A stretch of DNA of 35,030 nucleotides, taken from the NCBI GenBank assembly GCA_902779565.1, contig CACZCD010000012.1, positions 1-35,030 on the forward strand, read 5' to 3'. The notes beneath the pieces were generated by a model. That model was not told where the DNA came from, did not search any database, and saw nothing but the letters and a program-made list of their open reading frames with translations. Source of the stretch: an uncultured bacterium (GTDB lineage Bacteria > Verrucomicrobiota > Kiritimatiellia > RFP12 > UBA1067). Position numbers and translations under genes: made by a program. Positions 24,521-34,914 of the stretch are shown here, piece by piece; position 1 is the stretch's first letter; every line of letters starts with the position of its first letter.

Positions 24521-25642
24521 ATGAAGATCGTATTCGCCATAGATTCCTTCAAGGGGAGTCTCAGCTCGTTGGAGGCGGGGAACGCCGCCGCCGAAGGGGC
24601 GAAGCGTGCGTTCCCGGATGCGGAGTGCGTGGTGCGTCCGCTTGCCGACGGCGGCGAGGGCACGGTCGAGGCGCTGGCCGCCGGACTGGGTGGAGGACTG
24701 CGCACGGTGACGGTGACGGGACCGGCGGGACGTCCGACGGACGCCGTCTATGGAATCGTCGGCGAGACGGCGATTCTGGAGATGGCGCAGGCCGCCGGCA
24801 TCACGCTCGTCTCGGGCGCGGAGAAGAATCCGCTGCACACGACGACGTTCGGCGTGGGGGAGATGATTCGGGATGCGTTGGCGCACGGATGCCGCCGCTT
24901 CATCGTGGGCATTGGCGGCAGCGCCACGAACGATGGCGGCGCGGGGATGCTTCAGGCGCTTGGGTTCCGTCTGCTGGACAAGGCGGGGCAAGAGATTCCG
25001 CGCGGCGGTGAAGGTCTGGTGCGGCTTGATCGGATCGATCGCGCGGCGGTGCTGCCGGAATTGGAGACCTGCGCGTTTCGCGTGGCGTGCGATGTCACGA
25101 ACCCGCTCTGCGGGGCAATGGGCGCGAGTGCGGTGTTCGGTCCGCAGAAGGGGGCCACGCCCGAAATGGTGGCGACGCTTGATGCGGCGCTGGCGCATTT
25201 CGCCGAGGTGTCAGGCGGTGAGCCGGAGGCGGCGGGCGCGGGAGCCGCCGGGGGACTGGGCTTTGCGTTCCGGACGTTTCTCGGCGGCGAGCTGAAGCGC
25301 GGTGTGGACATTGTCCTGGAGGAGACGCGCCTCGCGGAGGCGATTCAGGATGCCCATCTTGTGGTGACGGGGGAGGGGCGGCTCGATGCGCAGACGGTGA
25401 TGGGCAAGGCACCCATTGGCGTGGCGCATCTCGCGAAGCGTTTGGGGAAGCGGGTGATTGCGTTCTCGGGTTGCGTCACGTCCGATGCGGGCGCGGTGAA
25501 CGAACACGGCATCGATGCGTTCTTCCCGATCTTGCGTGAGGTGACGACGCTTGAGACGGCGCTTGAAAAAGGTCATGCGGCGGCCAATCTCGCCGCCACA
25601 GCGGAACAGGTGTTCAGATGTTTTCGACTTGGGGCGCATTGA
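24521..25642 (+). CDS. glxK: Glycerate kinase (GlxK/GarK family)
   Basis: 373 residues, the usual length for this family. Motifs are strong: the N-terminal IDSFKGSLSS (7-16), LADGGEGT (41-48), the central GIGGSATNDGGAGM (about 131-144), the CDVTNPLCG segment and GEGRLDAQTVMGKAP near the C-terminus. The enzyme phosphorylates glycerate with ATP, giving a phosphoglycerate that enters glycolysis. It starts 12 nt after the previous stop with only a weak ribosome site (GGATGAA), so translation probably depends on the upstream gene. The downstream GntP-family permease begins 25 nt inside this gene, so uptake and kinase are almost certainly co-expressed. Confidence 0.93.
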   Translation: MKIVFAIDSFKGSLSSLEAGNAAAEGAKRAFPDAECVVRPLADGGEGTVEALAAGLGGGLRTVTVTGPAGRPTDAVYGIVGETAILEMAQAAGITLVSGAEKNPLHTTTFGVGEMIRDALAHGCRRFIVGIGGSATNDGGAGMLQALGFRLLDKAGQEIPRGGEGLVRLDRIDRAAVLPELETCAFRVACDVTNPLCGAMGASAVFGPQKGATPEMVATLDAALAHFAEVSGGEPEAAGAGAAGGLGFAFRTFLGGELKRGVDIVLEETRLAEAIQDAHLVVTGEGRLDAQTVMGKAPIGVAHLAKRLGKRVIAFSGCVTSDAGAVNEHGIDAFFPILREVTTLETALEKGHAAANLAATAEQVFRCFRLGAH

Positions 25643-26871
25643 CAGGACTTGTCCTCGCGATCGTGCTGATCGTGCGGAAGGCGACACCGGCGTACGCGTT
25701 GGTGTTGGGGGCTCTGATTGGCGGCCTTCTCGGCGGCGGTGGTCTGCCGGAGACGGTCGGGGCGATGATCGGCGGCGCGCAGTCGATGATGCCGAGCGTG
25801 TTGCGGATCCTGACGTCGGGTGTGCTGGCGGGCGCGTTGGTAAAAACCGGCAGCGCGGAGAAGATTGCGGACGCCATCGTCCGGGCGCTCGGCACGCGGT
25901 TCGCGCTCGCCGCCATCGCGTTGGCGACGCTGATCGTCACGGCCGTGGGGGTGTTTGTGGATATCGCGGTGATCACCGTGGCGCCAGTCGCGCTTGCCGT
26001 GGGGCGGCGCGCGGAGATTCCGGTGCCGGCGCTGCTGCTGGCGATGGTGGGCGGCGGAAAGGCGGGGAACGTGATCTCGCCCAATCCGAACACGATTGCG
26101 GCGGCGGATGCGTTCAATGTCGATCTGACGGCGCTCATGCTGAAGAACATCGTGCCTGCGCTCTGCGCGCTGACTGTGACGATTCTGCTTGCGCGCTGGT
26201 TGAGCCGCGCAAAATCCCCCATCCCAAACCTCCAACCCGAAACTGGAAACTCTAAACTCGAAACTCCCTCCCTTTGGGCGGCGGTGGCGGGGCCGCTTGT
26301 GGTGGTGGCTCTGTTGGCGCTCCGTCCGTTGTGCGGCTTCGCGGTCGATCCGCTCGTGGCGCTGCCGGCGGGCGGACTGGTCGCGATTCTGGTCTGCGGG
26401 AAGTGGCGGCAGACGGCGTCGTTCTGCGAGTACGGACTTTCCAAGGTGGCGGGCGTATCGATCCTGCTCATCGGGACGGGTGCGGTGGCGGGCATCGTCA
26501 AGAACTCGGGGCTGAACGCCGACATGGTGGCGTTCCTGAACGCCTGTCACCTGCCGGCGTTCGCGCTGGCGCCGCTTTCGAGCGTGCTGCTCTCCGGCGC
26601 GACGGCGTCCACCACGGCGGGCGTGACGATTGCCTCTCAGACCTTCTCCGGCACGTTGGTGCAGGCGGGGGTACCGGCCCTTTCGGCGGCGGCGATGCTC
26701 CATGCGGGCGGCACGATCTTCGATGCGCTTCCGCACGGCAGCTTCTTCCATGCGACGGCCGGCGCTGTGGGCATGGGCGTGAAGGATCGGCTCAAGCTCT
26801 TCCCGTACGGTACGCTTGTCGGTGCCACCTCCACCGTCACCTCCGTGCTCGTCTATCTCTGCGGCTTCTGA
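25618..26871 (+). CDS. GntP-family permease, probable glycerate/gluconate:H+ symporter
   Basis: 417 residues with about 12 predicted membrane helices, close to the GntP norm (~440). Family features include the N-terminal pair of helices with GALIGGLLGGGG, the DIAVITVAPVALAVGRR stretch, the conserved GGGKAGNVISPNPNTIAAA loop, and the C-terminal SGATASTTAGVTIASQ and HAGGTIFDALPHGSFFH segments. GntP proteins import sugar acids with protons; overlap with glycerate kinase (25 nt) points to glycerate. Odd feature: residues about 203-217, in the loop between two helices, are encoded by six heptanucleotide repeat units (IPNLQPETGNSKLET), making a hydrophilic insert unlike the rest of the protein. The gene is followed by 115 nt containing the promoter of the next operon. 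Confidence 0.88.
   Translation: MFSTWGALTGLVLAIVLIVRKATPAYALVLGALIGGLLGGGGLPETVGAMIGGAQSMMPSVLRILTSGVLAGALVKTGSAEKIADAIVRALGTRFALAAIALATLIVTAVGVFVDIAVITVAPVALAVGRRAEIPVPALLLAMVGGGKAGNVISPNPNTIAAADAFNVDLTALMLKNIVPALCALTVTILLARWLSRAKSPIPNLQPETGNSKLETPSLWAAVAGPLVVVALLALRPLCGFAVDPLVALPAGGLVAILVCGKWRQTASFCEYGLSKVAGVSILLIGTGAVAGIVKNSGLNADMVAFLNACHLPAFALAPLSSVLLSGATASTTAGVTIASQTFSGTLVQAGVPALSAAAMLHAGGTIFDALPHGSFFHATAGAVGMGVKDRLKLFPYGTLVGATSTVTSVLVYLCGF
26225..26266. repeat. Heptanucleotide tandem repeat inside the permease gene (locus C)
   Basis: Six degenerate 7-bp units (CAAACCT, CCAACCC, GAAACTG, GAAACTC, TAAACTC, GAAACTC), 42 bp in all, so in frame. It is nearly T-poor and A/C-rich on this strand, unlike the flanking GC-rich coding sequence, and adds a polar loop to a membrane protein. 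Confidence 0.9.
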
Positions 26872-26945: not shown

Positions 26946-26954
26946 TGGTATAAT
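26946..26954 (+). promoter_or_regulatory. Extended -10 promoter (TGGTATAAT) of the cytochrome-KAS-FkbH operon
   Basis: Perfect TATAAT at 26949-26954 in the context GTGGTATAATTCGCGGC, 32 nt before ATG 26987. No convincing -35 match upstream. It is the only promoter-like site seen for the four-gene operon that follows. Confidence 0.8.
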
Positions 26955-26986
26955 TCGCGGCATATTGGTTTGAGAGACGAGGCATC

Positions 26987-28843
26987 ATGAAGAGAACAGC
27001 AGCGACGATGTTGGCGGCGGCGTTGACCGTCGTGGCTTCGGCCGGCGATTTCAACGGCGGCCGTACCGTCCCCGTCCATCGCTTTGCGCCCGTGGACCGC
27101 GATGGCGACAAGGTGTCGGTGTGCGCGCGGATGCCGGCGGCGCTGTCGCAGGAGAAGACCTGCGGGCAGTGTCATGAGATCGAAAAGATGCCCGGCGGTT
27201 CGCATTTCCGGAACGGCGGCACGAACGATGTGGTGAACAAGGTGAACCGCGAGCCGTGGTTCCTCTGCTCCACGAACGGCGGCTGCCGCGTGGTGTCGCT
27301 CGCCGACCGCGGCGGACTCTCCGCGTGGGAGTGGGCGCGGACGTTCGGCTACGCTATCCCCGGCGGCGGTTTGGCGAGCTGTCCCGCCGCGATGTGCGAG
27401 CCGGCCGGTGAGCATCAGCGCTGGTTCGTGACGGGTCCGCTGGAGATGAACTGTCTCGCGTGCCATTCGCAGGACGACTACGACGTGAGCGAGTGGGCGA
27501 AGCAGACGATGCGCGAGAACTGGAGCGGCGCCGCGCTCGCGGCGGCGGGCTATGCGCGTGTCGAGGGCATGAACGCGCGGTTGGACGCCGCCTGGGATCC
27601 GCTCATCGCCGAGAATCCCGACGACCATCTCTTCAAGGTGCCGGAGAAGGTGCTGTACGAGCCGTCGAAATTCGACGACAAGGGGCGTTGCACGTTCCGC
27701 GTGGGTAAGCCGAAGAACGAGAACTGCCTCGCCTGCCATGCGGTCTCCGCCGTCGGCACGCCGTCGCATGACATCGCGGGTGACGTTCATCTTCAGCGCG
27801 GGATGCGTTGCATCGACTGCCACCAGAACGGCATGGACCACCGCATCGAGACGAAGAGCTGCGCATCGTGCCACCTTGAGAAGAACGGCGCGGGACCCAA
27901 GCCCCGGCATGTGGGACTTCCCCTTATTCATTTGGAGACGCTCTCCTGCACGGTGTGCCATTCCGGCGTGACGAAGGATGGCGCCTGTGCGCAGGTGCGC
28001 ACGATGCGTGCGAACCGCATCGGCATCTACGGGAAGGCGCACTGGGAGACGGATGTGCCGTTCATCGAAGAGCCTTTCATCCGGAAAAACGCCGACGGCA
28101 AGGTGGAGCTTTGCCGCCGCGCGGCGGTGTCACCTCAACCCTCAACCCTCAACGCTCAACCCACCAACTACGTCTATTGGGCGTTCGCCCATGACGTGAA
28201 GCCGGCGCGTCAGGCACGCGGTGCGGATCCCGATCGCTGCGCCGCCTGCCACTCCATCACAAGCCGCTTCTTCGAGGGTTACGAGGATCCCGTCTATTTC
28301 ACGGCGTTCAACCTTGCGTTCTTGGGACGCCCCGTGTTCAAGGTTGTCCTTTGGGTCGTCTTTGGTCTCCTATGCCTCTTCGCGGCGGCGGCGGCGGCGG
28401 TTGCGCTCAACCGTGCGGCGGCGAAGGTGGAGGAGGGCACCACGCACTTCCTGTGGGGGGCGTTCAAGTGGCTTGTGGATGTGGGCTTCGTGCTGGCGAT
28501 GGTCTATCTTGTCCTCTCGGGCGTGTTGGGCTGGTGGCGCGGCGGTATGACGTGGTGGTGGCTGATGCTTCACATGGTGGCGGGCGGCGTTCTGGCCGGT
28601 GCGGTGGCCGCGATGGCGGTGCTGCGCCATGGCGAACGGACGCGCGGCATGGCGTCGTCGGTGATCTGGACGCTGTGGCTGGTCTTCGCCGCGGGAACGG
28701 TGTTCACTGCCGTAATGCCGATGATGGCTGTGTTTGGAAGTCAGGGCCAGGCGTTCCTGCTCTGGAGCCACCGTTGCACGGCGCTCACCTTCACCGTCCT
28801 CTCGCTGGCGGTGTGCTTCGTGGCCCTGAAAAAGCGGAGGTGA
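26987..28843 (+). CDS. Membrane-bound seven-heme c-type cytochrome with b-type-like membrane domain
   Basis: 618 residues. A signal peptide (TMLAAALTVVASAG) is followed by a periplasmic part holding seven CxxCH heme c sites: CGQCH 59-63, CLACH 156-160, CLACH 247-251, CIDCH 275-279, CASCH 292-296, CTVCH 321-325 and CAACH 418-422. Scattered extra His residues could be distal ligands. From about 447 there are five predicted membrane helices with His residues in helices 3 and 5 (LMLHMVAGG, WSHRCTAL), resembling a small cytochrome-b-like quinone-interacting anchor. Layout recalls octaheme tetrathionate-reductase-type and NrfH/cytochrome-b fusions, so electron transfer between quinones and a periplasmic partner is likely. 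Residues 383-392 are encoded by a heptamer repeat. Start is supported by GAGACGAGG upstream. The next gene starts 1 nt after the stop. Physiological acceptor is unknown. Confidence 0.85.
   Translation: MKRTAATMLAAALTVVASAGDFNGGRTVPVHRFAPVDRDGDKVSVCARMPAALSQEKTCGQCHEIEKMPGGSHFRNGGTNDVVNKVNREPWFLCSTNGGCRVVSLADRGGLSAWEWARTFGYAIPGGGLASCPAAMCEPAGEHQRWFVTGPLEMNCLACHSQDDYDVSEWAKQTMRENWSGAALAAAGYARVEGMNARLDAAWDPLIAENPDDHLFKVPEKVLYEPSKFDDKGRCTFRVGKPKNENCLACHAVSAVGTPSHDIAGDVHLQRGMRCIDCHQNGMDHRIETKSCASCHLEKNGAGPKPRHVGLPLIHLETLSCTVCHSGVTKDGACAQVRTMRANRIGIYGKAHWETDVPFIEEPFIRKNADGKVELCRRAAVSPQPSTLNAQPTNYVYWAFAHDVKPARQARGADPDRCAACHSITSRFFEGYEDPVYFTAFNLAFLGRPVFKVVLWVVFGLLCLFAAAAAAVALNRAAAKVEEGTTHFLWGAFKWLVDVGFVLAMVYLVLSGVLGWWRGGMTWWWLMLHMVAGGVLAGAVAAMAVLRHGERTRGMASSVIWTLWLVFAAGTVFTAVMPMMAVFGSQGQAFLLWSHRCTALTFTVLSLAVCFVALKKRR
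28133..28160. repeat. Heptanucleotide tandem repeat inside the cytochrome gene (locus D)
   Basis: Four units: CCTCAAC three times, then GCTCAAC, followed by a decayed fifth copy (CCACCAA). It encodes the linker PQPSTLNAQP between the sixth and seventh heme sites. Confidence 0.9.
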
Positions 28844-28844
28844 T

Positions 28845-29390
28845 ATGTTCGGTCGCGTGCTGGGACTTGGTGCTTTGCTGGCGCTTTTTTGCGGGTGTGC
28901 CACGACAGTTGTACGCGAAGAGCCATCGCATGCTGCGCTCGCCGAGGCGCTCATAGAGAACGTGAAAGGGACGAAGGTCCAGATGGTGGAGGGGGCCTGG
29001 AAGGATGAGGCGTTCGCCGCCGAATGCGTACTGAAGGGTGATGGCGAAATGCTCACGGCGGTGCTGCTCGCGCCGCAGATGCGGCTTGCCACGCTCACGC
29101 TCAAGCAGCCGCACACGCTCCGGTGGGACCGCGCGCCGCAGGTTCCGTCCTCGTTAGATCCCGAGTATGTGCTCTTCGATATGGCGCTTGTGCTCCTGCC
29201 GACGGCGACGCTCTCCGAGAAGATTGGCGAGGACTACCGCGTGGACGAGACGGCGGATGGACGGCGGCGGCGCGTAGTGGATGCGCGCGGACGGCTCCAT
29301 TCGGTGCGTCAGGTGCTGCCCGACGGCGGTGTGTACTTCCGGAATGCAGTGTACGGTTATGAATTGACCGTCAAAACGATTCCCCAATGA
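28845..29390 (+). CDS. DUF3261-like outer-membrane lipoprotein
   Basis: 181 residues. Start is 1 nt after the cytochrome stop with CGGAGG just upstream. Residues 1-18 are a lipoprotein-type signal (LGLGALLALFCGC) with Cys18 as probable lipid site; the lipobox is imperfect (F-C-G before the Cys), so this is moderate. The body is a beta-rich fold resembling DUF3261 proteins, with the typical middle VLFDMALVLLPTATLSEKIG and the ending VYFRNAVYGYELTVKTI. DUF3261 proteins resemble LolA/LolB-type lipid carriers and often occur in gene clusters making aryl polyenes or related lipids with ketosynthases and ACPs. Here it sits directly ahead of a KAS III gene, whose ATG overlaps this stop (ATGA). A role in carrying or receiving the lipid-like product is a reasonable guess. 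Confidence 0.65.
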   Translation: MFGRVLGLGALLALFCGCATTVVREEPSHAALAEALIENVKGTKVQMVEGAWKDEAFAAECVLKGDGEMLTAVLLAPQMRLATLTLKQPHTLRWDRAPQVPSSLDPEYVLFDMALVLLPTATLSEKIGEDYRVDETADGRRRRVVDARGRLHSVRQVLPDGGVYFRNAVYGYELTVKTIPQ

Positions 29391-30331
29391 GAATTGACGG
29401 CGTTGACATTGAGGCGGTGTTCGGCTGCGTCCCTGCGAACGCGGTGGACAATCTCGCCGCTCTTGAACCGCTCGTCGGCGCGGAGAAGGCGGCGGCGATC
29501 GTTCAGGCGACGGGTTTCACCACGCGCCGCGTCGCGGCTTCGGGAACGGATGTGTTCGATCTCGTGCTGCCGGCGGCGAAACGCGCGCTGGAGGGCGTTG
29601 CGTCCCGTGAGATCGGCGGCGTGGTGGCGGTCAGCTTCTCGAACCGGAACCGCTTTCCGGCGCTCTCGGCGCGTCTGCAGCATGCGCTTGGGCTGGGGAA
29701 CGATGTGGTCGCCTACGATCTCTCTATGGCGTGCAGCGGGTGGATCTACGGACTCTTCGCCGCCGCGCAGCTGGTGAGGGCGTCGGGACGGAAGGTGCTC
29801 TTGGTGGATGGTGATGTGCAGAGCGCCTGGATCGATCCTTCTGACGCGAACACGCTCGCCGTGATGGGCGACGGTGCGGCGGCGGCGCTTCTCGGGCCGG
29901 GTACGGCGTCGTGGGAATTCGACTTTTTTACGGACGGCTCCGGTGCGGAGATTCTTAGTTGCCGCGAGACGATTGCGATGGATGGGTTTGGCGTGTTCCG
30001 CTTTGTGGCGGGTCCGGTGCGGCGCTTCCTTGAGACGTTCCTGCGCGATTCGCAGATCCTCGCTGGCGGCGCGTCGCTTTTCGTTCCGCATCAGGCGAAC
30101 CTGTACATGGTGCGTCAGCTCGCCGATGCGCTCGGTCTCAAGGATCGCGTGGCAGGCTGTGGCGCACGCTACGCGAACACAGGTTCCAGTTCGGCAGCGC
30201 TGACGCTCGCGGAGGAATTGCCCGTGCCTCCGGGCGGTGCGGTTCTGATGGCTGGCTTCGGCGCAGGGTTGAGCGCGGGGGTGGCGGCCACGACGCTCGG
30301 TGCGTACCGGAGAGGTGTGCTGGAGATATGA
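29387..30331 (+). CDS. 3-oxoacyl-ACP synthase III (KAS III/FabH-like)
   Basis: 314 residues, normal for the family (~310-330). The catalytic triad is intact: Cys116 in DLSMACSGWIYGL, His235 in FVPHQANLYM and Asn264 in RYANTGSSSA. The family GDGAAAALLG motif is at about 161-170. Such enzymes condense an acyl-CoA or acyl-enzyme with a malonyl- or other acyl-ACP. Because the next gene encodes an ACP joined to an FkbH-type glyceryl transferase, this KAS III is more likely part of a specialised pathway than the housekeeping FabH; the comparable pair in tetronate antibiotic clusters joins a glyceryl-ACP to a fatty or polyketide chain. Both its ends overlap the neighbouring genes by an ATGA, so all are translated together. 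Substrates cannot be read from the sequence. Confidence 0.88.
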   Translation: MRIDGVDIEAVFGCVPANAVDNLAALEPLVGAEKAAAIVQATGFTTRRVAASGTDVFDLVLPAAKRALEGVASREIGGVVAVSFSNRNRFPALSARLQHALGLGNDVVAYDLSMACSGWIYGLFAAAQLVRASGRKVLLVDGDVQSAWIDPSDANTLAVMGDGAAAALLGPGTASWEFDFFTDGSGAEILSCRETIAMDGFGVFRFVAGPVRRFLETFLRDSQILAGGASLFVPHQANLYMVRQLADALGLKDRVAGCGARYANTGSSSAALTLAEELPVPPGGAVLMAGFGAGLSAGVAATTLGAYRRGVLEI

Positions 30332-31512
30332 CTGCCGTCACGGAGAGGGCTTTCCGCGAAACGCTCGACGCGCTCGGACTCAACCCCGAGAAGGGGGCGT
30401 GGGATTCGATCCGCCACTTCAACCTCGTGATGGAATTAGAGGCGCGGTGGGGCGCGAAGATCCCGATCCAGGATGTCGAAAAGCTCCAGTCGTTCTCCGA
30501 TTTCTATTTCCGCGTGCCTTGCCGTCCGGCGAAGGTGCTGGCGGTGGATGCGGATAACACGCTCTGGGACGGAATCGTCAGCGAAGACGGTGCGGCGGAC
30601 GTGGAACCGTATGCGGCGTTTCAGCGCGGGCTGTTGGCGCTGAAGGCGAAGGGTGTTTTGCTTGTGCTGCTCAGCAAGAACGATCCGCCGGACGGCGGCC
30701 GTTCGCTGATCGAACAGGTGTTCGCGCGTGCAGACATGCCGCTTTCGCTTAACGACTTTGCGTTTGTCGGCGTGAGCTGGGAGCCGAAGCCGGGCGCGCT
30801 TCTGGCGGCGGCGAAGGCGCTCAATGTCGGGACGGACAGCTTTGTCTTCGTGGACGACAATCCGCACGAGCGCGCACAGATGAAGGCGCATCTTCCCGAA
30901 GTGATGGTCGTGGAGGAGATGGAGAGCTGGCAGACGAAGGGGATGGAAGGTCTCGCCGAGAGTCTGGGCGACACCTACTTCGCAGAGGCGGGACGGACGG
31001 AGGAGGATCGGTTGCGGGCGCAGCGCCCCGTCATTCTCTCGGAGCCGGGACTTGCGGAAGCGGCTTTTGTTCGGGGCGACTATCTCAAGACGCTGGAGCT
31101 GAAGGTCGCGTCCTCGCGTGCCGAGGAGGCGGATGTGCCACGGCTCGCGCAGATGGCGGGCAAGACGAACCAGTTCAACGCCACGACGATCCGCCGGAAC
31201 GAGGAGGAGTTCCGCGCGCTGCTGGCGGATCCGGCGAAACGCGTGTACGTATTCCGTTTGAGCGACAAGTTCGGTGCGATGGGGATCGTGTGTTTTGTGG
31301 TGGCGGATGTTGCCGTGCGTCGCATCACCGATTTTGTGATGAGCTGCCGCGCGATGGGGCGCACGCTGGAGTTCTTTGCGTATCGCCATGTGTGCCAGGA
31401 TCTCGGCGCGGAGACCGTCCCGATCGACTTCCGCGCCACGGCCAAGAACGGTCCCTTCGCGGCCTTTCTCGAAAAGCTGGCGCACGGCGAGCGCGAAACC
31501 TTCTGCGTGTGA
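30328..31512 (+). CDS. ACP-FkbH fusion: N-terminal acyl carrier domain plus HAD-like glyceryl transferase
   Basis: 394 residues. Residues about 1-60 look like an acyl carrier protein: WDSIRHFNLVMELE with Ser27 as likely phosphopantetheine site, then KIPIQDVEKLQSF. Residues about 68-200 are the HAD domain: DADNTLWDGIVSEDG (D74, D76), LLSKND, WEPKPG and FVFVDDNPHER. Residues about 230-394 are the GNAT-like C-terminal half typical of FkbH proteins: GKTNQFNATTIRR, LSDKFGAMGIV and MSCRAMGRTLEFF. FkbH enzymes take 1,3-bisphosphoglycerate, remove phosphate and load a glyceryl group onto an ACP; a built-in ACP would make this self-loading. Many FkbH proteins have Cys before SKN; here it is Leu, which questions the thioester step. 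ATGA overlap with the KAS III gene. Last gene of the operon; no terminator hairpin with T-run recognised after it. Confidence 0.85.
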   Translation: MTAVTERAFRETLDALGLNPEKGAWDSIRHFNLVMELEARWGAKIPIQDVEKLQSFSDFYFRVPCRPAKVLAVDADNTLWDGIVSEDGAADVEPYAAFQRGLLALKAKGVLLVLLSKNDPPDGGRSLIEQVFARADMPLSLNDFAFVGVSWEPKPGALLAAAKALNVGTDSFVFVDDNPHERAQMKAHLPEVMVVEEMESWQTKGMEGLAESLGDTYFAEAGRTEEDRLRAQRPVILSEPGLAEAAFVRGDYLKTLELKVASSRAEEADVPRLAQMAGKTNQFNATTIRRNEEEFRALLADPAKRVYVFRLSDKFGAMGIVCFVVADVAVRRITDFVMSCRAMGRTLEFFAYRHVCQDLGAETVPIDFRATAKNGPFAAFLEKLAHGERETFCV

Positions 31513-31526
31513 GAAGTGGATGTTTT

Positions 31527-31535
31527 TGGTATAAT
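31527..31535 (+). promoter_or_regulatory. Extended -10 promoter (TGGTATAAT)
   Basis: Perfect TATAAT at 31530-31535 preceded by TGG within TTTTTGG, 15 nt after the FkbH stop and 37 nt before ATG 31573. It gives the following secreted protein its own promoter. Confidence 0.75.
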
Positions 31536-31572
31536 GCAAATTTCAATTTAAGAGCAGGAAAGGTGGTTGACC

Positions 31573-34500
31573 ATGAACATTAAGCGTTCCGCTTGGCTTG
31601 TTGCGGCATTTGCGATGCTGGCGTCGTGTGCGTATGGGGCTTGGGCGCCGGAAGAGATAGTTGTCGCGGGACGGAACGAAACCGTGACGTTGAACGTGCC
31701 CGATCAGGACGTGGAATCGGTTCCTGGCAATGTCTTTATTGGCTCTGGTGGCGCCTTGCACAAGACGGGCGGCGGACTGCTGACGATGCCGCTCGAGAAG
31801 TTCGTGCAGGGCACTGAGGTCACGGTAGGGGTGCGCGAGGGCGCGGTGCGGATTGCGGCATTCGACCCGGAGAACTTCAATTTCAGCGAACCATACGATA
31901 CACTTGAGAAGGCGGCGCTGTGGCTGGACGCGTCTGCCGACGGGAAAGTTCTGTACACCAGCTCGAACGATGTGGATTGGGTTGACGGTTGGCTTGACGT
32001 CCGAGAGACGGGGAACGAGACGGACGGTTACGAGTACTTGCGCGCACTGCCGAACCTCGACCCGGCGAACCTTGCGCCGACGCTGGTGGAGACAAATGGG
32101 GTGAAGGCCATCTGGTTCGGCAAGTACGGTTCCGGACGGTCTATGGACTGGTGCGACGCAGACGGCGCGATCGTGACGTTCTCGAACATACGGCACGCCT
32201 TCATCCTGTATGGCGTGTACGAGAGCCACGGTTTCGTTCTCGGTCTGGCGAAAGGCGACCGGACAGATGGCGGCACGCCCACCTTCCACATTGCCTCTTC
32301 CAGTGCTGGCTCTCCGACGGATTCCATCGGTACGAAGTACTACACCGACGCAGCCGCCGTCTATACGGGGCGCACGTTCGTGAACGGCGAGATGGTGGAC
32401 GCCAGCAAGAACGGACAGCTCAAGCAACAACAGTTCCAGCTGCTCGAATACGACTGCTGCGGAAGGCCGGGGAGGGCCTCCAACTTCTTCAACGACCGCA
32501 ACTACTTCTCGAAAAACTCCAGTTACCCATCGGCTGGCGGCAACCGCATCGGCGGCGACTACATCGCAGAGGCGCTCATCTTCACGAACGAACTGACAGA
32601 GGCGGAGCGGATTTCCGTTGAGGCGTACCTGATGAACAAGCATCTGGGCGTGCGTGCACCGAAGGTTAAGGTCGTCCTCGCGGAAGATGCCACGGCGCTG
32701 GTGGAGGCGAACGCGTTGCGCGATTCGTTCATCACGGGCGACGGGACGCTGATGGTGGCGGATAATGCCGCCGACCTGCTCGCGATGCCGAACTTCGACT
32801 TTGCGGGACTGTTCGACATCGGGGGAGGCACGTACAGTCTCGGCAACCTGTTCGCGCTCATGATGTTCGACGGCGACCGCATTACGGTCTCGCAGGATGG
32901 TTATCGGCTGCCGACGGCGAGCCTGACAAGCGATGCCGGGGTGGGGCAGGTAGTGAAGGAGGGCAGCGGCCCGGCCTTGTTCACGCGAATCCCTGAAACG
33001 GTGGGCACCGTTTCCGTGAATGGAGGCACGCTGCGTCTTGCCGCCCCGCCGCGGAAGCAGAATCCAATCGTTCCGGGCAGCGTCACGGAAGTCGTCTTCC
33101 AGAACCCGGACTTCGAGGAGGTGGGACCGACGACAAACGCCGAGTACAAGTCTGAGCAGATGGTTGCGCACTGGAACCTCGTGGGGGTTAAGAACGGCAC
33201 CCATTGCGCGATCTTCATAGGCGGGGACGGCACCGGAAGCGGTTGGGGAACTACGGGAACCCCGTATCAAAGTCCGCTTCCGACGCCCGATGGCGGCATG
33301 GCGCTGATGTTAAAGGGCGATGCTTCGGCCTGGACATCGATCGACATCCCGACCGATGGCATCTACGACATCAGTTTCCTATCTGCGCCGAGAAACGGCT
33401 ACGGCAACAGGATGTTTGACATTTGCATCGGGCCTTCGGCAGACAATCTCGTGACGGTCGGAAGCTTTACGGTTTCTGATTTCGTATGGCGTCCGTTCCG
33501 CGTGCGCACGCCGTTGCTCAAGGCTGGCGCGAATCAGCAGTTCTGGTTCAGAAACTGGGCTGAAGGCACGGACAAGGCCGTCGCCGTTGACTGCATACGG
33601 ATGACGCTTGTCACCGATCTGGCTCCCGGCACCATCCCCGTGCCGAACGGTTCGTTTGAGCTGAGAGGTGCTTCATTCGTCGATGCAACGTTGCGCACGA
33701 ACAATCTTGTGACGGGTTGGACGCTGACGCAGACGAACGGATGGACCAGCGGAGCGCCATCGGCGGCGTTCACCACGCCCGCGATGGATAGTGGTGTGTT
33801 GGACCGCTTCGACTACGGGCACAACCGATCCGGCACCGTGCAGCTGTTGCTTGGCGGTACGGGGGCTAAGGCCGAGACTACGTTCACGCCTGCCACGGGC
33901 GGCGTGTACAGGCTGAAGGGCCTCGTCGCCTGCTACCGTTCCACCTCAATACGACACAGCACCACCTACGTGAATGCCCGCCTGACATCCGGCGGCACGG
34001 TGAAGGATCTTGGCACGCTTGCCGTATCCGTGTACCGCCTTACGGAAATGAAATGGCCGAATGCCGTAAGCGTTGCGGCCGGTGAGGAGGTGACGCTTAC
34101 GCTCGAAAGCCGCGACGCCGCCGTGCTGGAGGCGTTTACGCTGATCGACGATCTTGAACTGACACCGGCTGTCGAGAAAGCTGACGAACTGCTCGCGGCG
34201 GGCGGATTCGAGACGGCGGCGGTTTGGCATCTCACACAGCTTTACACGAAGCCGGGCAGTGTCGGTGCGAGCGCGCGCAGAGACTACCCCACCACAGCGC
34301 CGGTGTACGTCAACGCCTACGGGACGGAACGTTACGAAGGAAAATACATGTACTGCCTCGTGCAGAACGACATCGTGTGGCAGCAGATCGAGTTCCCGTC
34401 CGCCGGACTCTACAGGCTGAGCTATTTCGGGCATACGCGCAAGGACAACATCACCGATAAGGGGCTTAATCCGGTGAAGGCGTTCTGGGTGGCGGAAGGC

Positions 34501-34914
34501 AGCACGGTGACGAACTGGATCGGGACGGCCACGCCGAAATCCACGAACTTCGTGGAGTGCGTGTTCACGTTCAAGGTTCCGTCCGCGACCCGTGCGACAT
34601 TCGGTCTTCAGGGCGGGACGGAGCCGACGAACGGCAATGAGGGCGACCACACCACGGTGCTGGACGGCGTGTCGCTGAAGCGGGTGTTTTCGGAGAACGG
34701 CGGGTTGCCGGACGTGCCGGAAGGCTTGACGGTGCGGGTGGCCGCAGACGCAAAGCTTTCACTCGACTACGACGGGACGCTGGAGCTTCGCGCGCTCTAT
34801 CTCGGTGGCCATGCGGCGAGGGGGCTTATCACGTCGGCGACGCATCCGCAGTATGTGTCGGGTGTCGGCGAAATCTACGTGAAGCCGCGGGGGGCCGTTT
34901 TCACCATCCGCTGA
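31573..34914 (+). CDS. Large secreted LamG-like/jelly-roll-repeat protein
   Basis: 1113 residues from ATG 31573; a TTG two codons earlier is open, but AGGAAAGGTGG fits the ATG. Signal peptide: RSAWLVAAFAMLASCAYGAWA. Residues about 25-100 resemble an autotransporter-strand-repeat start (IGSGGALHKTGGGLLTM). Residues about 105-360 resemble a LamG/concanavalin-like domain (EKAALWLDASADGKVLY; ending IFTNELTEAERISVEAYLMN, a frequent end to such modules). Then three related beta-sandwich units begin near 511 (NPDFEEVGPT), 690 (VPNGSFELRG) and 874 (AAGGFETAAVW), each with a later YDISF/YRLKG/YRLSY strand; these look like carbohydrate-binding or DUF642-like folds. No catalytic domain was recognised. 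The last 13 residues, IYVKPRGAVFTIR, match the ending of the 7696-10314 protein in pattern. Probably a surface or secreted glycan-binding protein. Confidence 0.8.
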   Translation: MNIKRSAWLVAAFAMLASCAYGAWAPEEIVVAGRNETVTLNVPDQDVESVPGNVFIGSGGALHKTGGGLLTMPLEKFVQGTEVTVGVREGAVRIAAFDPENFNFSEPYDTLEKAALWLDASADGKVLYTSSNDVDWVDGWLDVRETGNETDGYEYLRALPNLDPANLAPTLVETNGVKAIWFGKYGSGRSMDWCDADGAIVTFSNIRHAFILYGVYESHGFVLGLAKGDRTDGGTPTFHIASSSAGSPTDSIGTKYYTDAAAVYTGRTFVNGEMVDASKNGQLKQQQFQLLEYDCCGRPGRASNFFNDRNYFSKNSSYPSAGGNRIGGDYIAEALIFTNELTEAERISVEAYLMNKHLGVRAPKVKVVLAEDATALVEANALRDSFITGDGTLMVADNAADLLAMPNFDFAGLFDIGGGTYSLGNLFALMMFDGDRITVSQDGYRLPTASLTSDAGVGQVVKEGSGPALFTRIPETVGTVSVNGGTLRLAAPPRKQNPIVPGSVTEVVFQNPDFEEVGPTTNAEYKSEQMVAHWNLVGVKNGTHCAIFIGGDGTGSGWGTTGTPYQSPLPTPDGGMALMLKGDASAWTSIDIPTDGIYDISFLSAPRNGYGNRMFDICIGPSADNLVTVGSFTVSDFVWRPFRVRTPLLKAGANQQFWFRNWAEGTDKAVAVDCIRMTLVTDLAPGTIPVPNGSFELRGASFVDATLRTNNLVTGWTLTQTNGWTSGAPSAAFTTPAMDSGVLDRFDYGHNRSGTVQLLLGGTGAKAETTFTPATGGVYRLKGLVACYRSTSIRHSTTYVNARLTSGGTVKDLGTLAVSVYRLTEMKWPNAVSVAAGEEVTLTLESRDAAVLEAFTLIDDLELTPAVEKADELLAAGGFETAAVWHLTQLYTKPGSVGASARRDYPTTAPVYVNAYGTERYEGKYMYCLVQNDIVWQQIEFPSAGLYRLSYFGHTRKDNITDKGLNPVKAFWVAEGSTVTNWIGTATPKSTNFVECVFTFKVPSATRATFGLQGGTEPTNGNEGDHTTVLDGVSLKRVFSENGGLPDVPEGLTVRVAADAKLSLDYDGTLELRALYLGGHAARGLITSATHPQYVSGVGEIYVKPRGAVFTIR

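Follow-up and report, generated by a model that had tools for sequence, protein, structure and literature searches.

A DUF3261 lipoprotein, a KAS III and an ACP-FkbH fusion in a Kiritimatiellae genome: a possible satellite of an aryl-polyene-type lipid pathway with scattered genes

What do a multiheme cytochrome, an outer-membrane lipoprotein and the enzymes of a glyceryl-loading module do side by side? The question is raised by a four-gene locus of an uncultured bacterium of the Kiritimatiellia (assembly GCA_902779565.1, contig CACZCD010000012.1, positions 1 to 35,030; this whole stretch of 35,030 nucleotides is called the window). Its four open reading frames (ORFs), all on the + strand at 26987-28843, 28845-29390, 29387-30331 and 30328-31512, encode a seven-heme c-type cytochrome, a DUF3261 lipoprotein, a β-ketoacyl-acyl carrier protein synthase III (KAS III) and an acyl carrier protein (ACP) fused to FkbH. 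The first-pass annotation read them as one tightly packed operon producing a lipid or redox cofactor of glyceryl origin for use with the membrane cytochrome. The packing is confirmed by the sequence, the junctions being, in order, a 1-nt gap and two 4-nt ATGA overlaps. It is quite possible, if not quite probable, that the last three genes are the satellite of an aryl-polyene-type lipid pathway whose genes are scattered, into which KAS III would feed glyceryl-ACP, and the cytochrome is very likely not a functional partner of this lipid module. The host genome is 4.09 Mb in 322 contigs, and its nearest relatives are metagenome-assembled Kiritimatiellae genomes from gut.

The conserved unit is KAS III, ACP and FkbH, with DUF3261 added in several genera. 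A survey of 115 genomes from this family, fragmented drafts in which the absence of a gene says little, found KAS III relatives in 79 and FkbH in 80 (84 if short or ACP-only matches are counted); both occur in 73 genomes and are adjacent in 31. Of the 16 positives for KAS III relatives at E <= 1e-30 in 388 genomes across the phylum, only 2 lie outside the family.

The FkbH domain (30517-31512, + strand) scores 230.8 bits against the profile TIGR01686, for which the curated cut-off is 146.65, and its model folds as a haloacid dehalogenase (HAD) IIIC phosphatase-like part followed by a C-terminal part resembling GCN5-related N-acetyltransferases (GNAT), with matches to 3slr/MDP-1 and to GNAT structures. 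The DxDxT residues Asp74 and Asp76, Lys154, Asp176-Asp177 and Cys340 of the C-terminal Ser-Cys-Arg motif are conserved in all 64 aligned proteins. The ACP domain in front of it (30328-30516, + strand) is short, about 60 residues, and matches ACP models weakly; it is homologous to the standalone ACPs found between KAS III and FkbH in relatives, and it is predicted to have a four-helix layout in which Ser27 of the W25-D26-S27 motif (codon at 30406-30408) starts helix II, the predicted local distance difference test (pLDDT) score there being only 59-75. Among the genera examined, only the window's genus showed this fusion, which in effect unites the ACP and FkbH functions in one protein. The others encode the ACP in a small ORF of its own, in many cases located between those of KAS III and FkbH, and their FkbH (proteins of genera g15 and g12) has a different N-terminal domain, which rules out a fusion common to all relatives. 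The Bacteroides FkbH-type protein BF1531 (PDB 3slr) shares a homologous HAD-IIIC domain (E=3.3e-17), and the window protein differs from it in having an ACP in place of the N-terminal domain. With these family calls and conserved residues, two first-pass proposals hold, namely an ACP serine motif fused to a HAD/GNAT-type FkbH and a glyceryl-handling module composed of FkbH, ACP and KAS III, and it seems likely that the module loads a glyceryl group. Campylobacter flagellar glycans with glyceric-acid derivatives may be a parallel for FkbH, KAS III and ACP, which is not used as evidence here.

The KAS III (314 residues; 29387-30331, + strand) matches PF08545/PF08541, and its Cys-His-Asn triad aligns with Cys112, His244 and Asn274 of E. 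coli FabH and is retained in 30 of 30 aligned Kiritimatiellae KAS III sequences, the window's included. In E. coli FabH, Trp32 and Arg151 hold coenzyme A (CoA) and Arg249 is important for ACP docking. Across the same 30 sequences Trp32 is lost from all and Arg151 from 29 (both are alanine in the window protein), and Arg249 is replaced by tyrosine throughout. The loss of the CoA-clamp residues suggests an acyl donor that is ACP-bound rather than CoA-bound. A housekeeping FabH identity is ruled out by these residues, by a score of 144.5 bits against the NCBIfam FabH model (cut-off 292.1) and by a separate FabH beside FabF on contig 13 of the same genome, which retains Trp32, Arg151 and Arg249; a KAS III with an intact triad, distinct from the housekeeping enzyme, thus stands as first annotated. 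In some relatives KAS III lies next to phosphotransferase system (PTS) and HPr genes, which were regarded as housekeeping genes unrelated to it. Elsewhere in the class, in another family, a row of ACP, KAS III, short-chain dehydrogenase/reductase (SDR) and KAS III genes lies beside glycosyltransferase-like genes (L243, 5651-8690).

The loss of the CoA clamp also fits an enzyme with two ACP-bound substrates, as would be the case if KAS III coupled glyceryl-ACP to a finished β-ketoacyl chain, with tetronate release as in the spirotetronate and polyether tetronate pathways. The glycerate-utilisation operon of those pathways (Mad7/Mad8/Mad16 and relatives) has three core functions, FkbH-like, ACP and FabH-like, and further genes for an acyltransferase and a dehydratase, Agg4- and Agg5-like (PMC7489565). 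All three core functions lie together in the window at 29387-31512. Unlike in that operon, however, the ACP is fused to FkbH, the module goes with DUF3261 and polyene-type lipid genes, and no modular polyketide synthase (PKS) is seen beside it in the annotated loci of the family. No Agg4-like acyltransferase or Agg5-like dehydratase was recognised among the annotated neighbours, for which no direct or whole-genome search was made. Moreover, SDR reductases adjoin KAS III-ACP-FkbH in L162, L172 and L251, and several relatives have one after FkbH or beside KAS III. This arrangement suggests that the keto group is reduced and fits a β-ketoacyl product of KAS III that undergoes such reduction. Tetronate release by this module is considered improbable.

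The lipoprotein (181 residues; 28845-29390, + strand) is the element that points to the aryl polyene pathway. It matches DUF3261 (PF11659, E=1.8e-16), its lipobox Gly17-Cys18 is invariant in 16 homologues, and its structure model (mean pLDDT 89) has LolB as the top PDB matches, with Z 9.8-9.1 and, for the best, Z 9.8 and a root-mean-square deviation of 3.3 over 130 residues. Family and lipobox are those of ApeN, the LolB-like DUF3261 protein of the E. coli aryl polyene cluster (PMC8253772), and the fold is that of LolA/LolB. DUF3261 is present in 18 of the 115 family genomes and adjoins KAS III in 13 of these; homologues also lie beside KAS III in L043, L071 and L073, which the Pfam genome search did not list. 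A strong ApeC-like gene accompanies DUF3261 in all 18 genomes; of the 37 genomes in which ApeC is strong, 36 encode KAS III or FkbH. In genome G028, genes for an ApeC-like protein, a lysophospholipid acyltransferase-type protein (LPLAT), DUF3261, a TMEM260-like membrane protein, KAS III and FkbH are tightly packed on one strand, and the order LPLAT-DUF3261-KAS III-FkbH recurs in L047, L051 and L052; in L190, KAS III adjoins a ketoreductase (KR) with 63% identity to that of the pathway. The early association of the lipoprotein with aryl-polyene-type lipid genes is therefore upheld by its likeness to ApeN and by these joint arrays, and from the arrays and the co-occurrence with ApeC it appears probable that the module is part of a dispersed aryl-polyene-type pathway, at least in genera g1, g12 and g15. 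A single cluster holding the whole pathway upstream of DUF3261 was rejected, as the neighbours there are often unrelated (GH31, M18 peptidase, GH123, UvrB).

In the window's genome, contig 94 carries in one operon an ApeC-like gene (PF13723, 1.4e-45), an LPLAT gene and a family 2 glycosyltransferase (GT2) gene, and contig 26 carries a ketosynthase (KS), a KR, an ACP, an ApeP-like (PF22817, 8.3e-16) and an ApeI-like dehydratase (PF22818, 1.1e-7). The ApeC-like protein, KS, KR, both dehydratases and ACP of an aryl polyene pathway are all there on contigs 26 and 94. They do not form a single contiguous cluster: both groups are flanked by unrelated genes, and the pathway genes are spread over at least three contigs. 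The compact pathway first proposed is thus not sustained, since its remainder likely lies on other contigs. A further KS is encoded on contig 2, and its relatives adjoin KR and ApeP-like genes in genus g15. Contig 38 of the same genome holds an iterative-PKS-like pair, a KS beside a 1037-residue acyltransferase/PKS dehydratase/phosphopantetheinyl transferase protein (L223, 488-4956).

The E. coli cluster has ApeC as its chain-length factor, with acyltransferase and glycosyltransferase functions assigned to ApeD and ApeJ, respectively (PMC8253772). Compared with the cluster of E. coli CFT073 and Xenorhabdus (ApeA-ApeR; PMC8253772), the window's genome has ApeN, ApeC-like, ApeD-like LPLAT and ApeJ-like glycosyltransferase genes, ApeP-like and ApeI-like dehydratases, KS, KR and ACP. 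It differs in that the genes are dispersed, KAS III and FkbH are added, ApeH, ApeL, ApeG and ApeK were not identified in this genome, and no aromatic ammonia lyase was found in the 16 genomes tested, a suggestive absence. The E. coli pathway starts from 4-hydroxybenzoate with an acyl-ACP synthetase. The glyceryl-loading module looks like it stands where one would expect aromatic starter genes.

Several observations weigh against assigning the module to this pathway. The window's genome encodes six AMP-binding proteins of unassigned role, and an aromatic-acid ligase in the role of ApeH may be among them. No MMPL protein of the size of the RND exporter ApeM was seen in it; its three PF03176 matches are all ~1030-1050 residues, a size typical of AcrB-type pumps. 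The co-occurrence counts ignore phylogeny. KAS III and/or FkbH is present, but no ApeP-like match, in about 30 family genomes, which belong mostly to a single genus and some of which are more than 90% complete; this implies that the module also works outside the polyene pathway. Conversely, G108 (71% complete) has ApeP-KR-KS-ApeC-LPLAT and no KAS III, FkbH or DUF3261 matches. In L251 (4603-10453), KAS III-ACP-FkbH-SDR is found with UDP-galactopyranose mutase, UDP-sugar dehydrogenase and glycosyltransferases; the genome of L251 has ApeP-like and ApeC-like genes elsewhere. Because of the ApeP-less genomes and this sugar locus, the link between module and polyene pathway does not hold for the whole family. 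The G108 genes, in a species of the window's genus, form a contiguous operon (L212, 2612-6360).

These data bear on a second alternative, in which KAS III would not prime a long chain. It would instead act as an acyl or glyceryl transferase, or produce a short acyl group of glyceryl origin, and so decorate a surface glycan or the sugar head group of a lipid. The L251 arrangement and the ~30 genomes lacking ApeP favour it, as do a glycosyltransferase near FkbH in other relatives and the fact that the sole sequence-related solved structure is the Bacteroides FkbH-type protein. However, the module is joined to DUF3261 in three genera and to LPLAT and ApeC-like genes in some species, all of them lipid and not glycan genes, and decoration, though a serious rival, is considered rather unlikely, less so than tetronate release.

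If the module is a satellite of the aryl-polyene-type pathway, the following mechanism can be proposed. By FkbH precedent, FkbH would take a glyceryl group, presumably from 1,3-bisphosphoglycerate, onto the fused ACP. The acyl group accepted by KAS III would be ACP-bound, glyceryl being the most likely, and its condensation with malonyl-ACP would prime the chain; this priming role is put forward tentatively. Extension would then fall to enzymes encoded elsewhere (KR, KS, the ApeP/ApeI-like dehydratases and the ApeC-like length factor), and the LPLAT and glycosyltransferase encoded with ApeC would attach the chain to a lipid. The DUF3261 lipoprotein, to judge from its fold, may act like LolB and take over the lipid at the outer membrane, and the cytochrome would be a neighbour gained in one branch of the genus, outside the lipid module. 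The fullest form of this proposal, a glyceryl-primed polyene- or fatty-acid-type synthase in which KAS III extends glyceryl-ACP drawn from glycolysis, is doubtful. Were it true, each chain would carry at its end a vicinal diol, or the diol in oxidised form, in place of an aromatic ring, and such lipids would serve in the outer membranes of Kiritimatiellae living anaerobically in the gut. Replacement of aromatic priming by a glyceryl module would widen the chemistry of the pathway, and genes so scattered would be poorly captured by tools that seek contiguous clusters. Literature searches returned no paper mentioning both FkbH and aryl polyene, and nothing relevant on the lipid head group of aryl polyenes.

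The cytochrome (618 residues; 26987-28843, + strand) has seven CXXCH motifs (at residues 59, 156, 247, 275, 292, 321 and 418), Cytochrome_C7/c3_2 domains by profile search and, from residue 453 on, about five hydrophobic segments forming a C-terminal membrane domain. The first-pass view that the lipid or redox cofactor made here works with it is favoured by the operon-like spacing of the four genes and by the same gene order in three relatives of the genus. Yet the module and the cytochrome are mostly in different genomes. The cytochrome is present in 49 of the 115 genomes, 23 of which also have KAS III/FkbH and 26 of which do not; KAS III/FkbH occurs in 86 genomes, in 63 of them with no cytochrome, and three genomes have neither. 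Such a pattern had been named in the first-pass annotation itself as refuting its proposal. The cytochrome is thus rarer in genomes with KAS III/FkbH (Fisher p=2e-9, kinship of genomes ignored). It adjoins the module only in G000, G109, G110 and G112, four species of the window's genus, and its neighbours elsewhere are ArgH, ExbB and ExbD: ExbB and ExbD precede it in 19 of 30 cytochrome loci retrieved, with ArgH upstream where the locus is long enough, and the loci of G108 and G111, also species of the window's genus, are among these 19. On neighbourhoods and co-occurrence across the family it is rejected as module partner, and the cytochrome-linked function first suggested is left with very little probability. 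The simplest account is that the gene is probably a passenger that took its place next to DUF3261 within a single branch of the genus. The order ExbB-ExbD-cytochrome, with argH upstream, is found in four genera (L126, L127, L131, L133-L148), and this pairing of a proton channel with a multiheme cytochrome may merit separate study.

Transcription of the locus from one promoter, as first annotated, is plausible. An extended -10-like box, TGGTATAAT, can be read 5' of the cytochrome gene at 26946-26954 on the + strand, although in a sigma-70 scan of the region no promoter, this box included, scored above the threshold. A second copy of TGGTATAAT at 31527-31535, before the gene downstream of FkbH, fits a unit that ends at FkbH. 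Just upstream of the cytochrome gene, at 24521-26871, a glycerate kinase gene (PF02595, 8.8e-143) overlaps that of a GntP-type permease; its proximity to a glyceryl module is possibly a coincidence, because the promoter-like box separates the genes. The gene behind the second box, at 31567-34914, encodes a protein of 1115 residues with no Pfam match.
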